Shown here in pieces: positions 56,503 through 63,334 of a stretch of DNA of 64,000 bases. The stretch comes from Prescottella agglutinans (GTDB lineage Bacteria; Actinomycetota; Actinomycetes; Mycobacteriales; Mycobacteriaceae), in the NCBI RefSeq assembly GCF_004011865.1, contig NZ_RKLP01000002.1, positions 434,001 through 498,000 on the forward strand, written 5' to 3'. Under the pieces are notes generated by a model, which saw only the letters and a list, made by a program, of their open reading frames with translations, ran no database searches and had not been told where the DNA came from. The translations under genes and the position numbers were made by a program. Each line of letters starts with the position of its first letter. Within the stretch, counting starts at the first letter, position 1.

Positions 56503-57428
56503 TCACCCCTGGTGGCTGCCGTCCTTGCTGCCGTCCTTGCTGCCGTCCTTGCTGCCGTCCTTGCTGCCGTCGTGGCTGCCATCCTTGCTGCCGTCGTGGC
56601 TGCCGTCCTTGCTTCCATCGTGGCTGCCGTCCTTGCTGCCATCGTGGCTGCCGTCCTTGCTGCCATCGTGGCTGCCATCCTTGCTGCCATCGTGGCTGCC
56701 GTCCTTGCTGCCGGACTCCAGGCTGCCGTCCTTGCTGCCGTCGTGGCTGCCGGCACCGAGGCTCCCGAGCGCCCCGAGACTCCCCAGCGCCCCGAGACTC
56801 CCTACGGCCCCGATGCTCCCCACGGCCCCGATACTTCCCAGGGCGCCTAGGCTGCCGAGGCTGCCGGAACCGCCACCGTCGTGGCTGCCGTCCTTGCTGC
56901 CGGACTCCAGGCTCCCCCAGCTGCCGCTACCGTGGCCCCCGTCGTGGCTGCCATCCTTACTGCCGGACTCCAGGCTCCCCCAGCTGCCGGAGTCACTACC
57001 GTGGCCCCCGTCGTGGCTGCCATCCTTACTCCCGGACTCCAGGCTCCCCCAGCTGCCGGAACCGCCACCGTCGTGGCTGCCATCCTTACTGCCGGACTCC
57101 AGGCTCCCCCAGCTGCCCGAACCGCCACCGTCGTGGCTGCCATCCTTACTGCCGGACTCCAGGCTCCCCCAGCTGCCCGAACCACCACCATCGTGGCTGC
57201 CATCCTTACTGCCGGACTCCAGGCTCCCCCAGCTGCCCGAACCGCCACCATCGTGGCTGCCATCCTTACTGCCGGACTCCAGGCTCCCCCAGCTGCCCGA
57301 ACCGCCACCGTCGTGGCTGCCGTCCTTACTGCCGGACTCCAGGCTCCCCCAGCTGCCCGAACCGCCACCGTCGTGGCTGCCGTCCTTACTGCCGGAAGCG
57401 AGGCTCCCCCAGCTGCCGGAACCGCCAT
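56503..57428. repeat. Nested coding tandem repeats (60-bp and 12/24-bp units)
   Basis: Nine 60-bp units run from about 56880 to 57428, six of them nearly identical (57061-57420 steps exactly 60 bp). From 56515 to about 56750 a 24-bp unit alternates (GCTGCCGTCGTG / GCTGCCGTCCTT themes). Copy number is likely to vary by slippage between strains. Confidence 0.95.
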
Positions 57429-57624
57429 CGTGACTTTCGGAGCCGCCGAGGCTGCTCGCCACCGGGGCGGCGAGGGATTCCGCTGACCCGGGGCTTCCGG
57501 ATTCAGGTTCAGCGTGCCCGACCGCAAGCGCACTCACCGTGAGCGCGGTGGCCGCCGTCGCGGCAATCATGATGCGGGTCTTCATCTTCAGAGTGCGGGG
57601 ATTTCCGTTCCCGTGGATTGGCAT
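56503..57624 (-). CDS. Secreted Gly/Ser/Asp/Lys/His repeat protein
   Basis: This 373-residue protein has a signal peptide (about residues 14-38, MKTRIMIAATAATALTVSAL then AVGHA) and then almost only repeats. Residues about 60-260 hold nine copies of a 20-residue unit, GSGSWGSLESGSKDGSHDGG, encoded by 60-bp repeats. Next is a short Gly/Leu/Ile/Ala block (GSLGALGSIGAVGS type), then about 75 residues alternating KDGS and HDGS. GGAGG 10 bases upstream supports the ATG at 57624. Asp every four residues with His suggests metal binding or a flexible wall polymer. No family recognised. Confidence 0.85.
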   Translation of the reverse strand: MPIHGNGNPRTLKMKTRIMIAATAATALTVSALAVGHAEPESGSPGSAESLAAPVASSLGGSESHDGGSGSWGSLASGSKDGSHDGGGSGSWGSLESGSKDGSHDGGGSGSWGSLESGSKDGSHDGGGSGSWGSLESGSKDGSHDGGGSGSWGSLESGSKDGSHDGGGSGSWGSLESGSKDGSHDGGGSGSWGSLESGSKDGSHDGGHGSDSGSWGSLESGSKDGSHDGGHGSGSWGSLESGSKDGSHDGGGSGSLGSLGALGSIGAVGSIGAVGSLGALGSLGALGSLGAGSHDGSKDGSLESGSKDGSHDGSKDGSHDGSKDGSHDGSKDGSHDGSKDGSHDGSKDGSHDGSKDGSKDGSKDGSKDGSHQG

Positions 57625-58157: not shown

Positions 58158-59147
58158 GTGCGTGGACTTGGCATCGATCTCGGAACTACCAACACTGTCG
58201 TCGGGACCCTGGACGGCGGAATCGTCCTGAACGAACCGTCTTTCATGCTGGTCCGGAACAAAGACCCGCACCGCGCCCTCGCGATCGGCCAGGATGCGCG
58301 CAACCTCGTCGGCCGCACGCCGGCAGGCATCACACAGGTCCGCCCCATGCGCGACGGCGTCATCGTGGACCTGGAATCTGCCCGGGCATTCGTCACGGCC
58401 GTCATTGAGCAGGTCGCCCCGCACCGACGGTACGGTCGACGACCGACGGCCGTCTTCTCGGCTCCCGCCGGGGCCACCCCGCTCGAGCGTCGGGCACTGC
58501 TCGAGGTCGGACACGAGGCCGGCCTGCGCAAGGTCGGGCTCATCCCGGAACCGGTGGCCGGCGCTCTCGGGTGCGGTGTCAATCCGCTCGAGCCCCGCGC
58601 CCATCTCGTCGTGAGCGTCGGTGGCGGTGTCTCGGAGGTCACGGCCATCTGCTTCGGTGGCGTGATCTCGCACCGCAGTTGCCAACTGGCCGGCGAGGAA
58701 CTGACCGAGGCGCTGCACCACTACCTGCGCGAAGAGCACCAGATCATGGTCGGAGAGCTCACGGCGGAGCGCGCCAAGATGGGCACGCCCGACGCCGCCG
58801 ACGAACAGTCGCTCGTGGTGGAGGGACTGGACGCCGTCACGGGCCGTGCACGACTGATCTCACTCGACGTCGAGGAGATCGTGGAGGCACTTCGACCGAC
58901 CACGACAGGAATCGTGCAGACACTGACCGCATGCTTGGAAGATCTTCCCCCGCAAGCGATCAGCGACGTGATGTCCGAAGGCGTCCTGGTGATCGGTGGC
59001 GGCGCGATGCTCCGCGGACTGTCCCAACTGTTCGAAGAGTCGTTCGGTCTCCCGGTGAAGACGGCCGAGCGGCCGCTCACCTGCGTCGCGGAGGGCGCCA
59101 CGGCCTGCCTGGATCACCCGGAGGTCGTCGCCGCGTACAGCGGCTGA
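58158..59147 (+). CDS. MreB-like actin-fold protein with altered phosphate-2 motif
   Basis: From GTG 58158 (GGGAGG 5 bases upstream; the frame extends upstream without support) this encodes 329 residues, the length of MreB. It has phosphate-1 GIDLGTTNTVVG, GIVLNEPSFMLV, IGQDARNLVGRTPAGITQVR, PLERRALLEVGHEAGLRKVG, LIPEPVAGALGCG and the adenosine motif VIGGGAMLRGLSQLFEESFG. The phosphate-2 motif reads VVSVGGGVSEV, where MreB has VVDIGGGTTEV: the Asp that helps ATP hydrolysis is Ser. It may bind but not hydrolyse ATP. Convergent with the SEDS-PBP fusion. Confidence 0.9.
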   Translation: MRGLGIDLGTTNTVVGTLDGGIVLNEPSFMLVRNKDPHRALAIGQDARNLVGRTPAGITQVRPMRDGVIVDLESARAFVTAVIEQVAPHRRYGRRPTAVFSAPAGATPLERRALLEVGHEAGLRKVGLIPEPVAGALGCGVNPLEPRAHLVVSVGGGVSEVTAICFGGVISHRSCQLAGEELTEALHHYLREEHQIMVGELTAERAKMGTPDAADEQSLVVEGLDAVTGRARLISLDVEEIVEALRPTTTGIVQTLTACLEDLPPQAISDVMSEGVLVIGGGAMLRGLSQLFEESFGLPVKTAERPLTCVAEGATACLDHPEVVAAYSG

Positions 59148-59219: not shown

Positions 59220-62084
59220 TCACCGACCGGGTGCCGGTGCCGGCGGGGGACCCGGCCGCCCCGCGAGGTAGCGCTCGAGGATCGACTTGACCACGGGACC
59301 CGACGTCGCCGATCCGAATCCACCGCCGCGCACCAGCGCCGTGACGACGATCTCGGGCGACTCGAAGGGCACCACCGCGGAGAACCAGGCGTTGAGACCG
59401 CCCGGTGCCGACGGATCCTCCGCCGTGCCGGTCTTGGCGCCGGCCGTCACCGGCAGCGTGGCGAGCTGACCTGCCGTGCCGGCAGCGGCCGATGCCCGCA
59501 TCCCGGCGCGGACGGGACCGAGCTTGTCGGCGAACGGAAGCCGCTGAGGCTCGCCCGTCGGAATCGGCGCGCCGTCTCCGGTCGCGTCGGCGGCGGCGAG
59601 CTGCGGGGTGACCATCGCCCCGGTGGCGATGCCGGACGTCCACCGCGCCACCTGGATCGGGGTTGCGATCACGGTGCCCTGCCCGATGCCCATCAACAGC
59701 GTCGAGCCGGGATACCAGGTGCCACCGATGTCGGCGACGTTTTCCGGTGTGCCCAGGAACCCCGCGGACTCGCCGGGCAGGTCGATCCCCGATCGGCTGC
59801 CCACTCCGAGTTGGGAGGCGGTCTTCGCCATCCGCTCCGGACCGAGAAGCTCACCGAGCTTGTAGAAGTACACGTTGTCCGACCACTGGATCGCCCCCAA
59901 CAGGTTGTTCGGCCCCAGCGGCTTCCAGTTCGCGAACGTGTGCCCGCCGTAGCTGTAGGCGGCACCGGTCTCGATCACCTGCTCCGGGTCCAGCACCTGG
60001 TCCACCTGGTTCGCCGACGCGACAACGATCTTGAAGGTCGAGCCCGGCGGCGCGGCGGTCTGATAGGCGTGGTTGAGCATCCGTCCGGGCCCGGATCCCT
60101 CGGTCTGCGCGGCCAGCGCGACCGCGTCGACGGGGGGACCGTAGACGTTGTTGTCGTACCCGGGCACGCTGGCGAGCGCGAGCACCCCACCGGTGCGCGC
60201 GTCCATCACCACCGCGGCACCGAGGTCGCCCCCGCTGCTGCGGACCGCCTGGGCCAACGCATCCGTCGCCAGGGTCTGCAGGCCGATGTCCAGGTACAGG
60301 CGCAGGTTGTGGCCCGGCACCGGATCGACGCGCTCGGCCGGGCCGATCAGATTTCCGGCCGGATCGACATAGATGCACTGCCTGCCGTCGGTGCCGCGGA
60401 GCAGCGCGTCGTACTGCTTCTCGAGACCCGCCCTGCCGACCCGCGACCCGAGTGCGAGCTGGGGCCAGCGTTCCATGTCCTGCGGATCACCGACGCTGAC
60501 GTAGCCGAGGACGGAGGCGAGCGTGGCGCCGTACGGATAGTGCCGCTTCCCGGAGGGGACGACGAGCACGCCGGGCAGCTTCGCGTCGATTATCCGCCGC
60601 GCCTGCTCGGGGGGAACCTGGCCGACGACGGCCTGCAACTCCCCTTCGCCGCTGTCCCCCAGCGTTTTCGTCAGCTCGGCGTCGGGCTCACCCAGCAGCG
60701 CGGCCAGCATGCCGCGCTCACCGGCGTCGTCCTCGTCGAACATCCGGGCGACCACCGAGATGGTGTACTCGGGCACGTTGGTCGCCAGCGGCACGCCGTT
60801 CCGGTCGAGGATCTCGCCGCGTTCGGCGGGCAGCCGGATGCAGCGAGTCATCTGGGTGTCGCTCAGCGCGCGCAACTCCGGACCGCGGTCGCTCTGCAAC
60901 TGCCAGGCGAACACGGACATCGCCACCAGGAGCGCGGTGACGGCGAGGGACCCCGCCGTGACGCCCCGCGGCCGGCGCCGGCGGGTGGACGGCTGCGCCC
61001 ACAGCGGCCGGCCGACACCGTCGCGGCGCACCGCGAGCACCAGCCCGATCGAGATGAATCCGACGACCGCGACCGTGCCGCCGTAGCTGAACATCGGGAG
61101 CGGCATCCCGGTCTGGGGCAGTACCGACAGGCTCGCCCCGATGGACAGCACCGCATGGATCCCGAACAGCCCACCGACGCCCGCGGCCACGAGCGCGGCC
61201 TCCCGGGTCCGGGCGCGGCGCGCGGCGAGCGCGGCACGCCACGTGATCACCAGGCTGGCCGCGATGACGGCGATGCCGGCGAACAGTCCCCACCCGTACA
61301 CGACGCTCGCGAACGCGAGGTCGTGCTCGGCTTCGGGAAGATATGCCGCCCTCAGGTCGTAGATGGGGTCTCGCGCCAGTCCCCACAGGCCGCCGCTGCC
61401 GACCGCGATGTCGGCCTGCATCGACGCCCAGCCTGATCCGCTCGGATCGGCGTCGCTCGACACGAATGTCTGGATCCGTTCGAGCTGGTACGGGCGGAGG
61501 AAGAGCACGGCAATGGGCAGCGCGGCGATCCCCAGCGCGAACAGCGGCATCAGCGGCGCCATCGGCACCCGGGCCAGGATCAGCATCAAGAACGCAATCG
61601 CGACCAGCACCACGGCACTCGACAGGTCGGGCTGCAGCGCGACGAGTGCGACGACGGCACCGGCGATCGCCAACGCCGCCGTCAGCCGGCCGAACGTGTA
61701 GCCGCCGGCGAGGATGGTCGCCGACACCATGACCAGACCGAGCTTGGCGATCTCGGACGGCTGAACGGTGAACAGGCCGAAGTCCAGCCACCGCTGTGCG
61801 CCCTTGACCGCGACGCCGACGAGCGGCACCGCTGCCAGCATCACGACCGAGACCCCGAGGGTCACCCATCCGAACCGGGCCAGATTGTTCACCCGCATCC
61901 GCGATACGACCCACATCAACCCGAGTCCGATCACGGTGAAGAACGCGTGGCGGATCGCCTGCGACGTGAACCCGATCGAGACCAGGTTGAGCAGGCCGAG
62001 GACCGCGAGTACGACCGCCGCCGCAACGATCCAGGGGTCGGACTCGCGATCGTGCCCCCGTACCCGGCCGCCGTCCCCGCTCAT
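59220..62084 (-). CDS. SEDS (RodA/FtsW) - class B PBP fusion protein
   Basis: This 954-residue membrane protein joins two wall-synthesis enzymes. Residues about 15-355 are a SEDS glycosyltransferase: KGAQRWLDFGLFTVQPSE, catalytic Asp153 in ALQPDLSSAVVL, and PLPMFSYGGTVAVVGFIS. A basic cytoplasmic linker (STRRRRPRGV) and an extra helix (about 377-396) follow. Residues about 410-945 are a PBP2/PBPA-like transpeptidase: LPAERGEILDRNG, SxxK in GSTFK (Ser682, Lys685), SDN (735) and AGAKTGTAED (Lys884). All catalytic motifs are present, so one chain should polymerise and cross-link peptidoglycan. It overlaps the next upstream gene by 4 bp. Confidence 0.95.
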   Translation of the reverse strand: MSGDGGRVRGHDRESDPWIVAAAVVLAVLGLLNLVSIGFTSQAIRHAFFTVIGLGLMWVVSRMRVNNLARFGWVTLGVSVVMLAAVPLVGVAVKGAQRWLDFGLFTVQPSEIAKLGLVMVSATILAGGYTFGRLTAALAIAGAVVALVALQPDLSSAVVLVAIAFLMLILARVPMAPLMPLFALGIAALPIAVLFLRPYQLERIQTFVSSDADPSGSGWASMQADIAVGSGGLWGLARDPIYDLRAAYLPEAEHDLAFASVVYGWGLFAGIAVIAASLVITWRAALAARRARTREAALVAAGVGGLFGIHAVLSIGASLSVLPQTGMPLPMFSYGGTVAVVGFISIGLVLAVRRDGVGRPLWAQPSTRRRRPRGVTAGSLAVTALLVAMSVFAWQLQSDRGPELRALSDTQMTRCIRLPAERGEILDRNGVPLATNVPEYTISVVARMFDEDDAGERGMLAALLGEPDAELTKTLGDSGEGELQAVVGQVPPEQARRIIDAKLPGVLVVPSGKRHYPYGATLASVLGYVSVGDPQDMERWPQLALGSRVGRAGLEKQYDALLRGTDGRQCIYVDPAGNLIGPAERVDPVPGHNLRLYLDIGLQTLATDALAQAVRSSGGDLGAAVVMDARTGGVLALASVPGYDNNVYGPPVDAVALAAQTEGSGPGRMLNHAYQTAAPPGSTFKIVVASANQVDQVLDPEQVIETGAAYSYGGHTFANWKPLGPNNLLGAIQWSDNVYFYKLGELLGPERMAKTASQLGVGSRSGIDLPGESAGFLGTPENVADIGGTWYPGSTLLMGIGQGTVIATPIQVARWTSGIATGAMVTPQLAAADATGDGAPIPTGEPQRLPFADKLGPVRAGMRASAAAGTAGQLATLPVTAGAKTGTAEDPSAPGGLNAWFSAVVPFESPEIVVTALVRGGGFGSATSGPVVKSILERYLAGRPGPPPAPAPGR

Positions 62085-63334
62085 CGGCAGACCGCGTTCT
62101 CGGCGGGCACGTACAGCGGCTCCGACGCGGCGACCGCAGGCGCGCTCGTGACCGCGGCGACGCCCAGGGCGGAAGCGTCCGGCAGCGTGGTCCGGCTCAG
62201 TCCGTACACGCCGTCGCGCCCCGGCTCGGCCGGGATGGTGACGTCACCGCCCTCGCGCACCTCACCGGTGCACCGGTCGTAGACGTTCAGCTTCCAGGTG
62301 ACCGCACCGACCGCCGACGGATCGAGGCGGACGTCCACCCGTACCGCGCACGGCTTGCCGGGGTTGCACGATCCGTCGGCGAAACTTGCTGTGACCCCGG
62401 CGATTTGACCCGAGGACGCCGGAGCACCGGTATGAACCGGCGCCGGCGCGACACCACCTGCTTCGGTCGCGGCCCCGGTCTGGTTCGCCGGTTCGGGCGG
62501 CGGCGGCGACACCGGTTCGATGCGGTTCTGCGCCGTGGAGGAGTTCACCGGATCGAGGAGGGCGTTCCAACCCCGGCTCAGTTGCTCCAAGGCACGAGGA
62601 GCCGCCACAGCCGACCCGGCGAGAATGACGATCGCAAGAACGGCGTAAAGGCCCTGTCGCCGGGACGGCCGACGTCGACGACTGTGCCACGCGCTTCGGA
62701 CCGGCGGGTACCAACCGGTGCTCGTCACGAGCGACACGGCCGGTACGGACGGACCGTTCCGTACATCGGTCTGACCGTCCCGATCTTCCACCACCAGACC
62801 GTGCGGCACGGACCGTCCTGTCGTCGCCCGGACGAGTTCGCCGATCTGACGTCTCCGCCGTGCCTCGCCGGCCGGGTCGAGTTCGGGATCGATCACCCGA
62901 CGAACCCGGCGAATCAGGCTGTCCGGATCCGTTGTGCCCGACACCGATTCGGCCAGAAGGTCACCGAACCCGGAACCCCGGCAGTTCGTGGCGATACTGC
63001 GGAACAGGCCCACGATCGCATCGTTCGGCTCGATGCCGGACGCGGCGCTGTCGGCGCCGTCGATCGTGAGCCGTCCGCCGTCGGACACCATGACCGCGTC
63101 TTCCCGCACAGCGACCGGGCGGCCACGCCCGGCGCCCCGTTCGAGCGCGCCGGCCAGGTCCGCGACCAGTTGAGCGGCCTGCGCCGGCGTCAGCCGCACG
63201 GCCGCGAGCAGCGTCGGCAGCGTGACACCGGCACCGCCGCCGCCCGAGTCGTCATCGATCGACTCGGGCGGTTCCGGTCGGGCCTCGACGGGCTCGCGAC
63301 TGCTCGCGTGGACTCCCAAGGCTGCTTCGTTCAT
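62081..63334 (-). CDS. Membrane protein with possible degenerate kinase-like N-terminus
   Basis: From ATG 63334 (MNEAALGVHASSREP; CGGGGA upstream) this encodes 417 residues. Residues about 50-190 resemble the C-lobe of actinobacterial Ser/Thr kinases or MurJ-type pseudokinases (LTPAQAAQLVADLAGALERG, VREDAVMVSDGGRLTIDG) without HRD or DFG. A basic stretch and one membrane helix (GLYAVLAIVILAGSAVAAPR) follow, then a Pro-rich linker and an outer beta domain with Cys pairs (GSCNPGKPCAVRVDVRLD, YDRCTGEV). It overlaps the SEDS-PBP gene by 4 bp, so it likely escorts or regulates that enzyme. Confidence 0.7.
   Translation of the reverse strand: MNEAALGVHASSREPVEARPEPPESIDDDSGGGGAGVTLPTLLAAVRLTPAQAAQLVADLAGALERGAGRGRPVAVREDAVMVSDGGRLTIDGADSAASGIEPNDAIVGLFRSIATNCRGSGFGDLLAESVSGTTDPDSLIRRVRRVIDPELDPAGEARRRRQIGELVRATTGRSVPHGLVVEDRDGQTDVRNGPSVPAVSLVTSTGWYPPVRSAWHSRRRRPSRRQGLYAVLAIVILAGSAVAAPRALEQLSRGWNALLDPVNSSTAQNRIEPVSPPPPEPANQTGAATEAGGVAPAPVHTGAPASSGQIAGVTASFADGSCNPGKPCAVRVDVRLDPSAVGAVTWKLNVYDRCTGEVREGGDVTIPAEPGRDGVYGLSRTTLPDASALGVAAVTSAPAVAASEPLYVPAENAVCR

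Follow-up and report, generated by a model that had tools for sequence, protein, structure and literature searches.

A single-chain RodA-type SEDS and class B PBP protein encoded beside a divergent mreB in Prescottella agglutinans

We analyzed a stretch of 64,000 nucleotides (the window) from the genome of Prescottella agglutinans, which has 5.4 Mb in 22 contigs. The gene of interest joins a SEDS protein and a class B penicillin-binding protein (PBP) in one chain, and it lies between a gene for an orphan membrane protein, which we call "up," and a divergent mreB, which encodes a bacterial actin (Table 1). The fusion is a single open frame on the minus strand that starts with the ATG at 62084. 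The plus-strand reading of 59220-62084 contains a stop; an earlier note on this DNA had named no strand. The nearest named relatives have very similar fusions (96% identical in Rhodococcus hoagii AcN21-7 and 95% in Prescottella equi DSM 20307). The window also holds a 373-amino-acid ORF (56503-57624, minus strand) between htpG and mreB, which appears to have a signal peptide and contains long repeats of the GSKDGSHDG type; no relative of it was listed, under default filters, in the fusion loci that we obtained from a peptide-pattern scan.

Table 1. Features of the fusion locus, in positions of the window
Feature	Position	Strand	Evidence
SEDS-bPBP fusion gene, 954 aa	59220..62084	-	ORF, Pfam and NCBIfam matches
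RodA-type SEDS domain, residues 16-354	61023..62039	-	rodA_shape match; top-scoring solved structures are RodA 6pl5/6bar
Codon of D255, predicted SEDS catalytic Asp	61320..61322	-	structure-sequence alignment, conservation
Linker in the cytoplasm, residues 355-377, made up of the SEDS C-tail and the PBP N-terminal segment; proposed docking loop for MreB	60954..61022	-	conservation
bPBP transmembrane helix, residues 378-398	60891..60953	-	Kyte-Doolittle segment 373-398
PBP pedestal/dimerisation domain, residues 418-580	60345..60833	-	PF03717
Transpeptidase domain, residues 622-937; S682xxK685, S735-D-N737, K884-T-G886	59274..60221	-	PF00905, conservation
Divergent mreB, 329 aa, convergent with the fusion	58158..59147	+	PF06723, E 3.3e-91
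Orphan membrane protein "up," 417 aa	62081..63334	-	4-nt overlap with the fusion start
"up" cytoplasmic domain, residues 34-175, candidate KIND / protein-kinase C-lobe-like fold	62810..63235	-	
"up" long helix, expected to be transmembrane, residues 225-260	62555..62662	-	AlphaFold2 model
"up" outer Ig-like beta-sandwich, residues 305-412	62099..62422	-	

Three Pfam families match the fusion above their cut-offs: FTSW_RODA_SPOVE (PF01098) at residues 40-354 (E 1.5e-59; 202.2 bits, with a cut-off of 26.4), PBP_dimer at 418-580 (E 6.4e-33), and Transpeptidase at 622-937 (E 8.8e-49). The SEDS part is complete, because the TIGR rodA_shape alignment covers residues 16-354. On the other hand, the fusion scores below the curated values of both NCBIfam equivalogs, with 230.5 bits rather than 336.7 for RodA (TIGR02210) and 391.7 rather than 455 for PBP2/MrdA (TIGR03423). 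Because the TIGR02210 cut-off is missed, we call the SEDS half "RodA-type" and not RodA. A predicted model with a mean pLDDT of 55, too poor for judging the interface between SEDS and PBP, has helices that, together with the hydrophobic stretches of the sequence, would be compatible with 10 + 1 transmembrane helices. In this arrangement, the linker and the extra helix would fit the topology that the two domains need, as the earlier note suggested. A fold search with the model returned PBPs at the top (TM about 0.3 of the query), and we set it aside because of the model's low pLDDT.

To describe conservation we use an alignment of 46 fusions, many of which are closely related and one of which (L078) is truncated by a contig end. 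The alignment omits a broken copy (L056), L060 (discussed below), L080-L083 (the same genes as L061-L064), a fragment (L084), and the mre-cluster loci L065-L074. The predicted catalytic aspartate of the SEDS half is D255. It aligns with the Asp of the RodA structures 6pl5 and 6bar, which is Ala in 6pl6 and 6bas; its counterpart in E. coli RodA (8tj3) is the Asp of "HTD." Among the fusions, D255 is invariant (46/46). (The structure 6pl5 is RodA-PBP2 of T. thermophilus.) The earlier note had named D153 instead, which is wrong: D153 sits in a "QPDL" motif, and 2 of the 45 readable fusions have N there. In the PBP half, the note's SxxK, SDN, and KTG motifs are where it placed them. S682 and K685 are kept in 46/46 fusions and KTG in 45/45 readable ones. 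The middle motif varies (SDN in 37, SNN in 4, and SND in 5), and SND and SAD are also found in aligned solved structures of PBP2. Separately, two outer cysteines, C415 and C570, are invariant (46/46), and it is a guess that they could form a disulphide in the pedestal.

Could the SEDS half have stopped polymerizing and be kept only as an anchor or scaffold for the transpeptidase? K94 and D153 are variable among the fusions, and the stem of the fusion clade in the SEDS tree is long (1.46 changes per column). But D255 is invariant, R98 and R203 are kept in 45/45 readable fusions, and in the SYGG motif the S and both G's are complete and the Y is present in 44/46. We consider a non-polymerizing scaffold to be extremely improbable.

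A single chain could in principle be an artifact in which a sequencing or assembly error joined two adjacent genes. We looked for a frameshift or stop near residues 360-380 and for homologs that are always split there, and neither occurs. In a sample of the family, 50 of 301 genomes match the fusion (its own genome included), in 6 of 31 genera, and 49 of these 50 have it unbroken in a single frame (51 copies, with two each in G707 and G737). Although 10 of the 51 copies were flagged with a read-through stop, the retrieved sequences were open to the conserved end in 10/10. Furthermore, three Rhodococcus plasmids carry the fusion as one CDS, annotated as "FtsW/RodA/SpoVE family cell cycle protein." The substitution pattern is also of a coding type across the linker: codon position 3 is the most divergent in the SEDS part, the linker, and the PBP part alike (in 6/6 relatives compared), so the linker is translated. 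The one frameshifted relative is within the genus, where 11 of 13 other genomes match, ten unbroken and one (G008, the copy L056) split into three frames by breaks around residues 255-266 and 485-491, away from the domain joint. These breaks are likely to be indel errors of the assembly, because the listed completeness of the genome is 79%. (The copy lies at L056 6001-8850, from the complete chromosome of Prescottella defluvii SampleD3_15, and mreB is also broken there, into two frames.) Given the independent assemblies, we rule out both a sequencing error and split homologs, and we give the artifact practically no credence. One natural SEDS-PBP chain of 954 residues, as first proposed, holds.

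The search for the same domain order also gives the spread of the fusion. It was found in 6 of 180 genomes in an order sample (E 1e-90), in 5 of 345 in a class sample, and in 1 of 396 in a phylum sample (E 1e-70). These counts include the fusion's own genome, which is the only match in the phylum sample. From these samples and the family counts, the fusion is patchy within Actinomycetota. Even in the same genus, two genomes (G004 and G005) gave no match at a threshold of E 1e-60. (Each carries a third SEDS gene, an FtsW-type one that has no PBP match nearby in the 15 kb examined; L094 in G004 and L093 in G005.) Phyla beyond Actinomycetota were covered by the peptide-pattern scan only. Its sole match outside Actinomycetota, L060 from the Phycisphaerales, was taken for a distant fusion and turned out to be two separate ORFs.

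Where did the halves come from? We built a SEDS tree from 42 of 51 SEDS rows, after near-copies were removed; L060 is absent from this tree and from the PBP tree. All of the fusions form one clade (support 100/100), which groups with the RodAs of mre clusters and E. coli RodA, apart from the FtsWs and the RodAs of pkn clusters (99/95). This contradicts an FtsW-type origin of the SEDS half. The earlier note had labeled the SEDS half "RodA/FtsW"; the tree makes it RodA-type rather than FtsW-type. Forcing the fusions together with the pkn-type RodAs costs 6.85 log units, and because the AU test gives p 0.056, that origin is disfavored marginally and is not firmly excluded. In the PBP tree, where the PbpA row is a stretch of 406 residues, the PBP parts of the fusions cluster with E. 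coli PBP2 and the PBPs of mre clusters, with SH-aLRT 94 and with long branches flagged.

The gene arrangements of the likely relatives differ from the fusion. Actinobacterial mre clusters, such as SCO2607-2611 of Streptomyces (PMC4255298), also have MreB beside a RodA-type SEDS and a PBP2-type PBP, but their MreB belongs to another clade, and in the ten clusters that we examined, the PBP precedes the SEDS as a separate gene on mreB's strand. An operon of this kind that lost a stop codon would yield the reverse order, and therefore a rearrangement is needed. The pkn-cluster RodA-PbpA pair, which is adjacent in this genome (L117), shares the order of SEDS then PBP but is encoded by separate genes and belongs to another SEDS clade. 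The fusion's own genome has two more SEDS genes in all. One (C3) adjoins genes for a transpeptidase and two kinases, and the other (C19) has a transpeptidase gene at a distance of about 7 kb; from their arrangement, we take these to be RodA-PbpA and FtsW-FtsI, respectively.

The linker between the halves is nearly fixed in length (23 residues in 42 of the 46 fusions; three have 24 and one has 25). It is rich in arginine, the net charge of residues 353-377 ranges from +3 to +10 across the 46 fusions, and W362 and R373 are present in all of them. Beyond these features, the linker is more variable than both domains at second codon positions. It corresponds to the C-terminal tail of RodA and the N-terminal segment of PBP2, joined here as one loop. 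In E. coli, these two segments are described as binding MreB, and MreB with a mutant RodA-PBP2 complex has been termed a minimal elongasome (PMC13327600). Artificial SEDS-bPBP fusions are reported to be active (PMC6207328, PMC10449877). The engineered E. coli RodA-PBP2 fusions likewise have SEDS first and are joined inside the cell, but their linkers (GGGSx3 or TSGSGSGS) are artificial and flexible, while the natural linker has about 23 residues, is basic, and has two invariant residues. An artificial RodA-PBP2 fusion from E. coli was partly cleaved in its linker (PMC6207328). Similarly, the natural chain might be a precursor that is cut in its Arg-rich linker, so that the working enzyme would still be a complex of two proteins. 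We view this as very unlikely, as the linker's length is nearly fixed, W362 and R373 are in every fusion, and the linker contains no known cut site.

The conserved neighbors of the fusion (the divergent MreB and the orphan membrane protein) say the most about its function, and the earlier note had left them out. We examined 43 chromosomal-type loci, which are 34 of 35 peptide-pattern loci (including L056) and nine further genomes; three plasmid copies are counted separately. In 43/43 of these loci, mreB is at the 3' end of the fusion. Of the 34 peptide-pattern loci, 33 have it convergent with the fusion and that of Haloechinothrix has it co-oriented, and it is beside the fusion in 9/9 of the further genomes (one locus spans two contigs with matching ends, and two have gaps of about 0.9 kb). 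Because it is convergent, mreB is not in the fusion's operon in 42/43 loci. The MreBs that are linked to fusions form their own clade (SH-aLRT 100). Across the 180 genomes of the order sample, a full-length divergent MreB (E 1e-78 to 1e-91) is found in exactly the 6 genomes that have the fusion, where MreB fragments in G177 and G156 (profile positions from 133-136 on, E 1e-75 to 1e-88) are not counted as full length. Canonical MreB (E < 1e-130) is found in 49 of the 180, and G169 has both types.

The plasmid copies (L112, L113, and L114, on pRWAY03, pRB29, and unnamed4) stand apart from the chromosomal-type loci. In none of them is there an mreB within 4-5 kb; "up" is missing from two, and L114 keeps shrunken and broken remnants of it. 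So the fusion may act without mreB and "up." (By position, two of the plasmid hosts, G707 and G737, have a second copy of the fusion on a large contig.) Taken further, the fusion might be a single-chain synthase that is independent of MreB, i.e., a spare polar or stress synthase, with mreB and "up" adjoining it for other reasons. That mreB is on the opposite strand in 42/43 loci would fit with this, and so would polar growth directed by DivIVA, which is described for the actinobacteria that have been studied (PMC3296230, PMC8262863). Nevertheless, the linkage is retained in every one of the chromosomal-type loci examined, the divergent MreB co-occurs with the fusion in 6/6 genomes among the 180, and the length of the linker is fixed. 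We think that independence from MreB is unlikely.

The other neighbor, "up," is at the 5' end of the fusion in 42/43 chromosomal-type loci (34/34 peptide-pattern loci and 8 of the 9 further genomes). In the remaining genome, no "up" is visible and the contig ends inside the fusion. "up" has no match in Pfam or NCBIfam, and a Pfam search with 19 members of the family gave nothing credible (best E 0.03). The match of its residues 34-175 to a KIND-like fold is below the level at which the fold tool advises caution for helical folds, and Foldseek with "up" lists beta-sandwich chains with low TM. A profile comparison with the genome's two kinases gave a plausible register but a probability of 0.4%, which is not significant. 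KIND stands for "kinase non-catalytic C-lobe," a domain of Spire, and Spire's role is tied to actin. No kinship of "up" with the KIND domain of Spire shows at the sequence level.

We also searched for other components of the Rod system. MreC was not found in the fusion's own genome, and it is absent from 10 of the 11 fusion genomes tested. (The search was positive in G328, G032, and G025, and 8/14 control genomes were positive.) The eleventh fusion genome, G328, has MreC and a separate mre-type PBP-SEDS pair. (In G328, the fusion and its divergent MreB stand alongside this pair, MreC, and a strong RodZ-type match; L064/L083 and L096.) RodZ-type HTH_25 matches are weak (E 4e-6 or worse) in 10 of the 11 fusion genomes, and strong ones were found only in G328 and G032 among 13 genomes, with none in the fusion's own genome. 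A missing RodZ is not telling, because G025, which has an mre cluster, also has no strong RodZ-type match. Compared to RodA-PBP2 of the Rod system (6pl5, and 8tj3 from E. coli), the fusion has a RodA-type SEDS with the same catalytic Asp, a PBP2-type pedestal and transpeptidase, and mreB nearby. It differs in being one chain with SEDS first, in scoring under the NCBIfam equivalog cut-offs, and in its genome, which has neither MreC nor a strong RodZ-type match. M. tuberculosis and its relatives are described as having no Rod components besides RodA-PBP2 (PMC8262863).

The fusion itself is not new. A sentence in PMC10449877 states that natural single ORFs encode SEDS-PBP fusions and cites the genome of Rhodococcus RHA1; this sentence gives no gene, neighborhood, linker, or distribution. 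RHA1 is a strain of R. jostii (PMC4255298). The cited fusion is probably from the same family; R. jostii NBRC 16295 carries it (L040). In the literature that we searched, we found no description of a linkage of a SEDS-PBP fusion to MreB or "up," and the passages on actinobacterial growth make no mention of an MreB-linked fusion synthase. As far as this literature shows, the conserved module with mreB and "up," the linker, and the family tree are new.

We favor the view, as a probable one, that the fusion is the single-chain peptidoglycan synthase of a reduced Rod system that is guided by MreB. The RodA-type half would polymerize Lipid II at D255, and the PBP2-type half, tethered by the short cytoplasmic linker and its own transmembrane helix, would crosslink the new strand outside at S682. 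The divergent MreB would dock on the linker inside the cell, and "up," with its KIND-like and Ig-like domains, may take the regulatory place of MreC and RodZ. The result would be a fixed 1:1 synthase, which MreB would steer via the linker and "up" would regulate. We prefer an MreB-steered synthase because a dedicated MreB adjoins the fusion, MreC is missing, and the two segments that correspond to MreB-binding segments are one loop. Also, because the transmembrane helix of PBP2 is reported to stimulate RodA in an artificial fusion (PMC10449877), tethering may keep the polymerase on. The role of the fusion, beside the polar machinery, is probably conditional, because two genomes of the same genus do not have it and other SEDS pairs are present. 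By analogy with Streptomyces, whose mre genes are described as acting in spore walls, we speculate that it could be tied to a rod-to-coccus cycle.

A more specific version, which we hold as a tentative possibility, is that this is another type of machinery for wall growth in actinobacteria, a natural minimal elongasome: RodA and PBP2 would be one chain whose cytoplasmic joint docks a dedicated MreB, and a single membrane protein, pseudokinase-like (KIND-fold) inside and with an Ig domain outside, would stand in for MreC and RodZ. If so, then Spire would not be the only case of a KIND fold that works with an actin-family system, and this second pairing would have arisen independently.

The fusion is a natural joining, in Rhodococcus-type bacteria, of two cell-wall enzymes that other bacteria make separately. 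The coupling of SEDS proteins to class B PBPs, and the connection of MreB to both, have been studied with artificial fusions and activated mutants. Both could be tested directly on a natural 1:1 chain whose linker has a fixed length and which comes with a dedicated MreB and without MreC. Some actinobacteria that grow at their poles would thereby have a synthase that is linked to MreB, and they may offer a natural system in which to test what steers the building of the wall.
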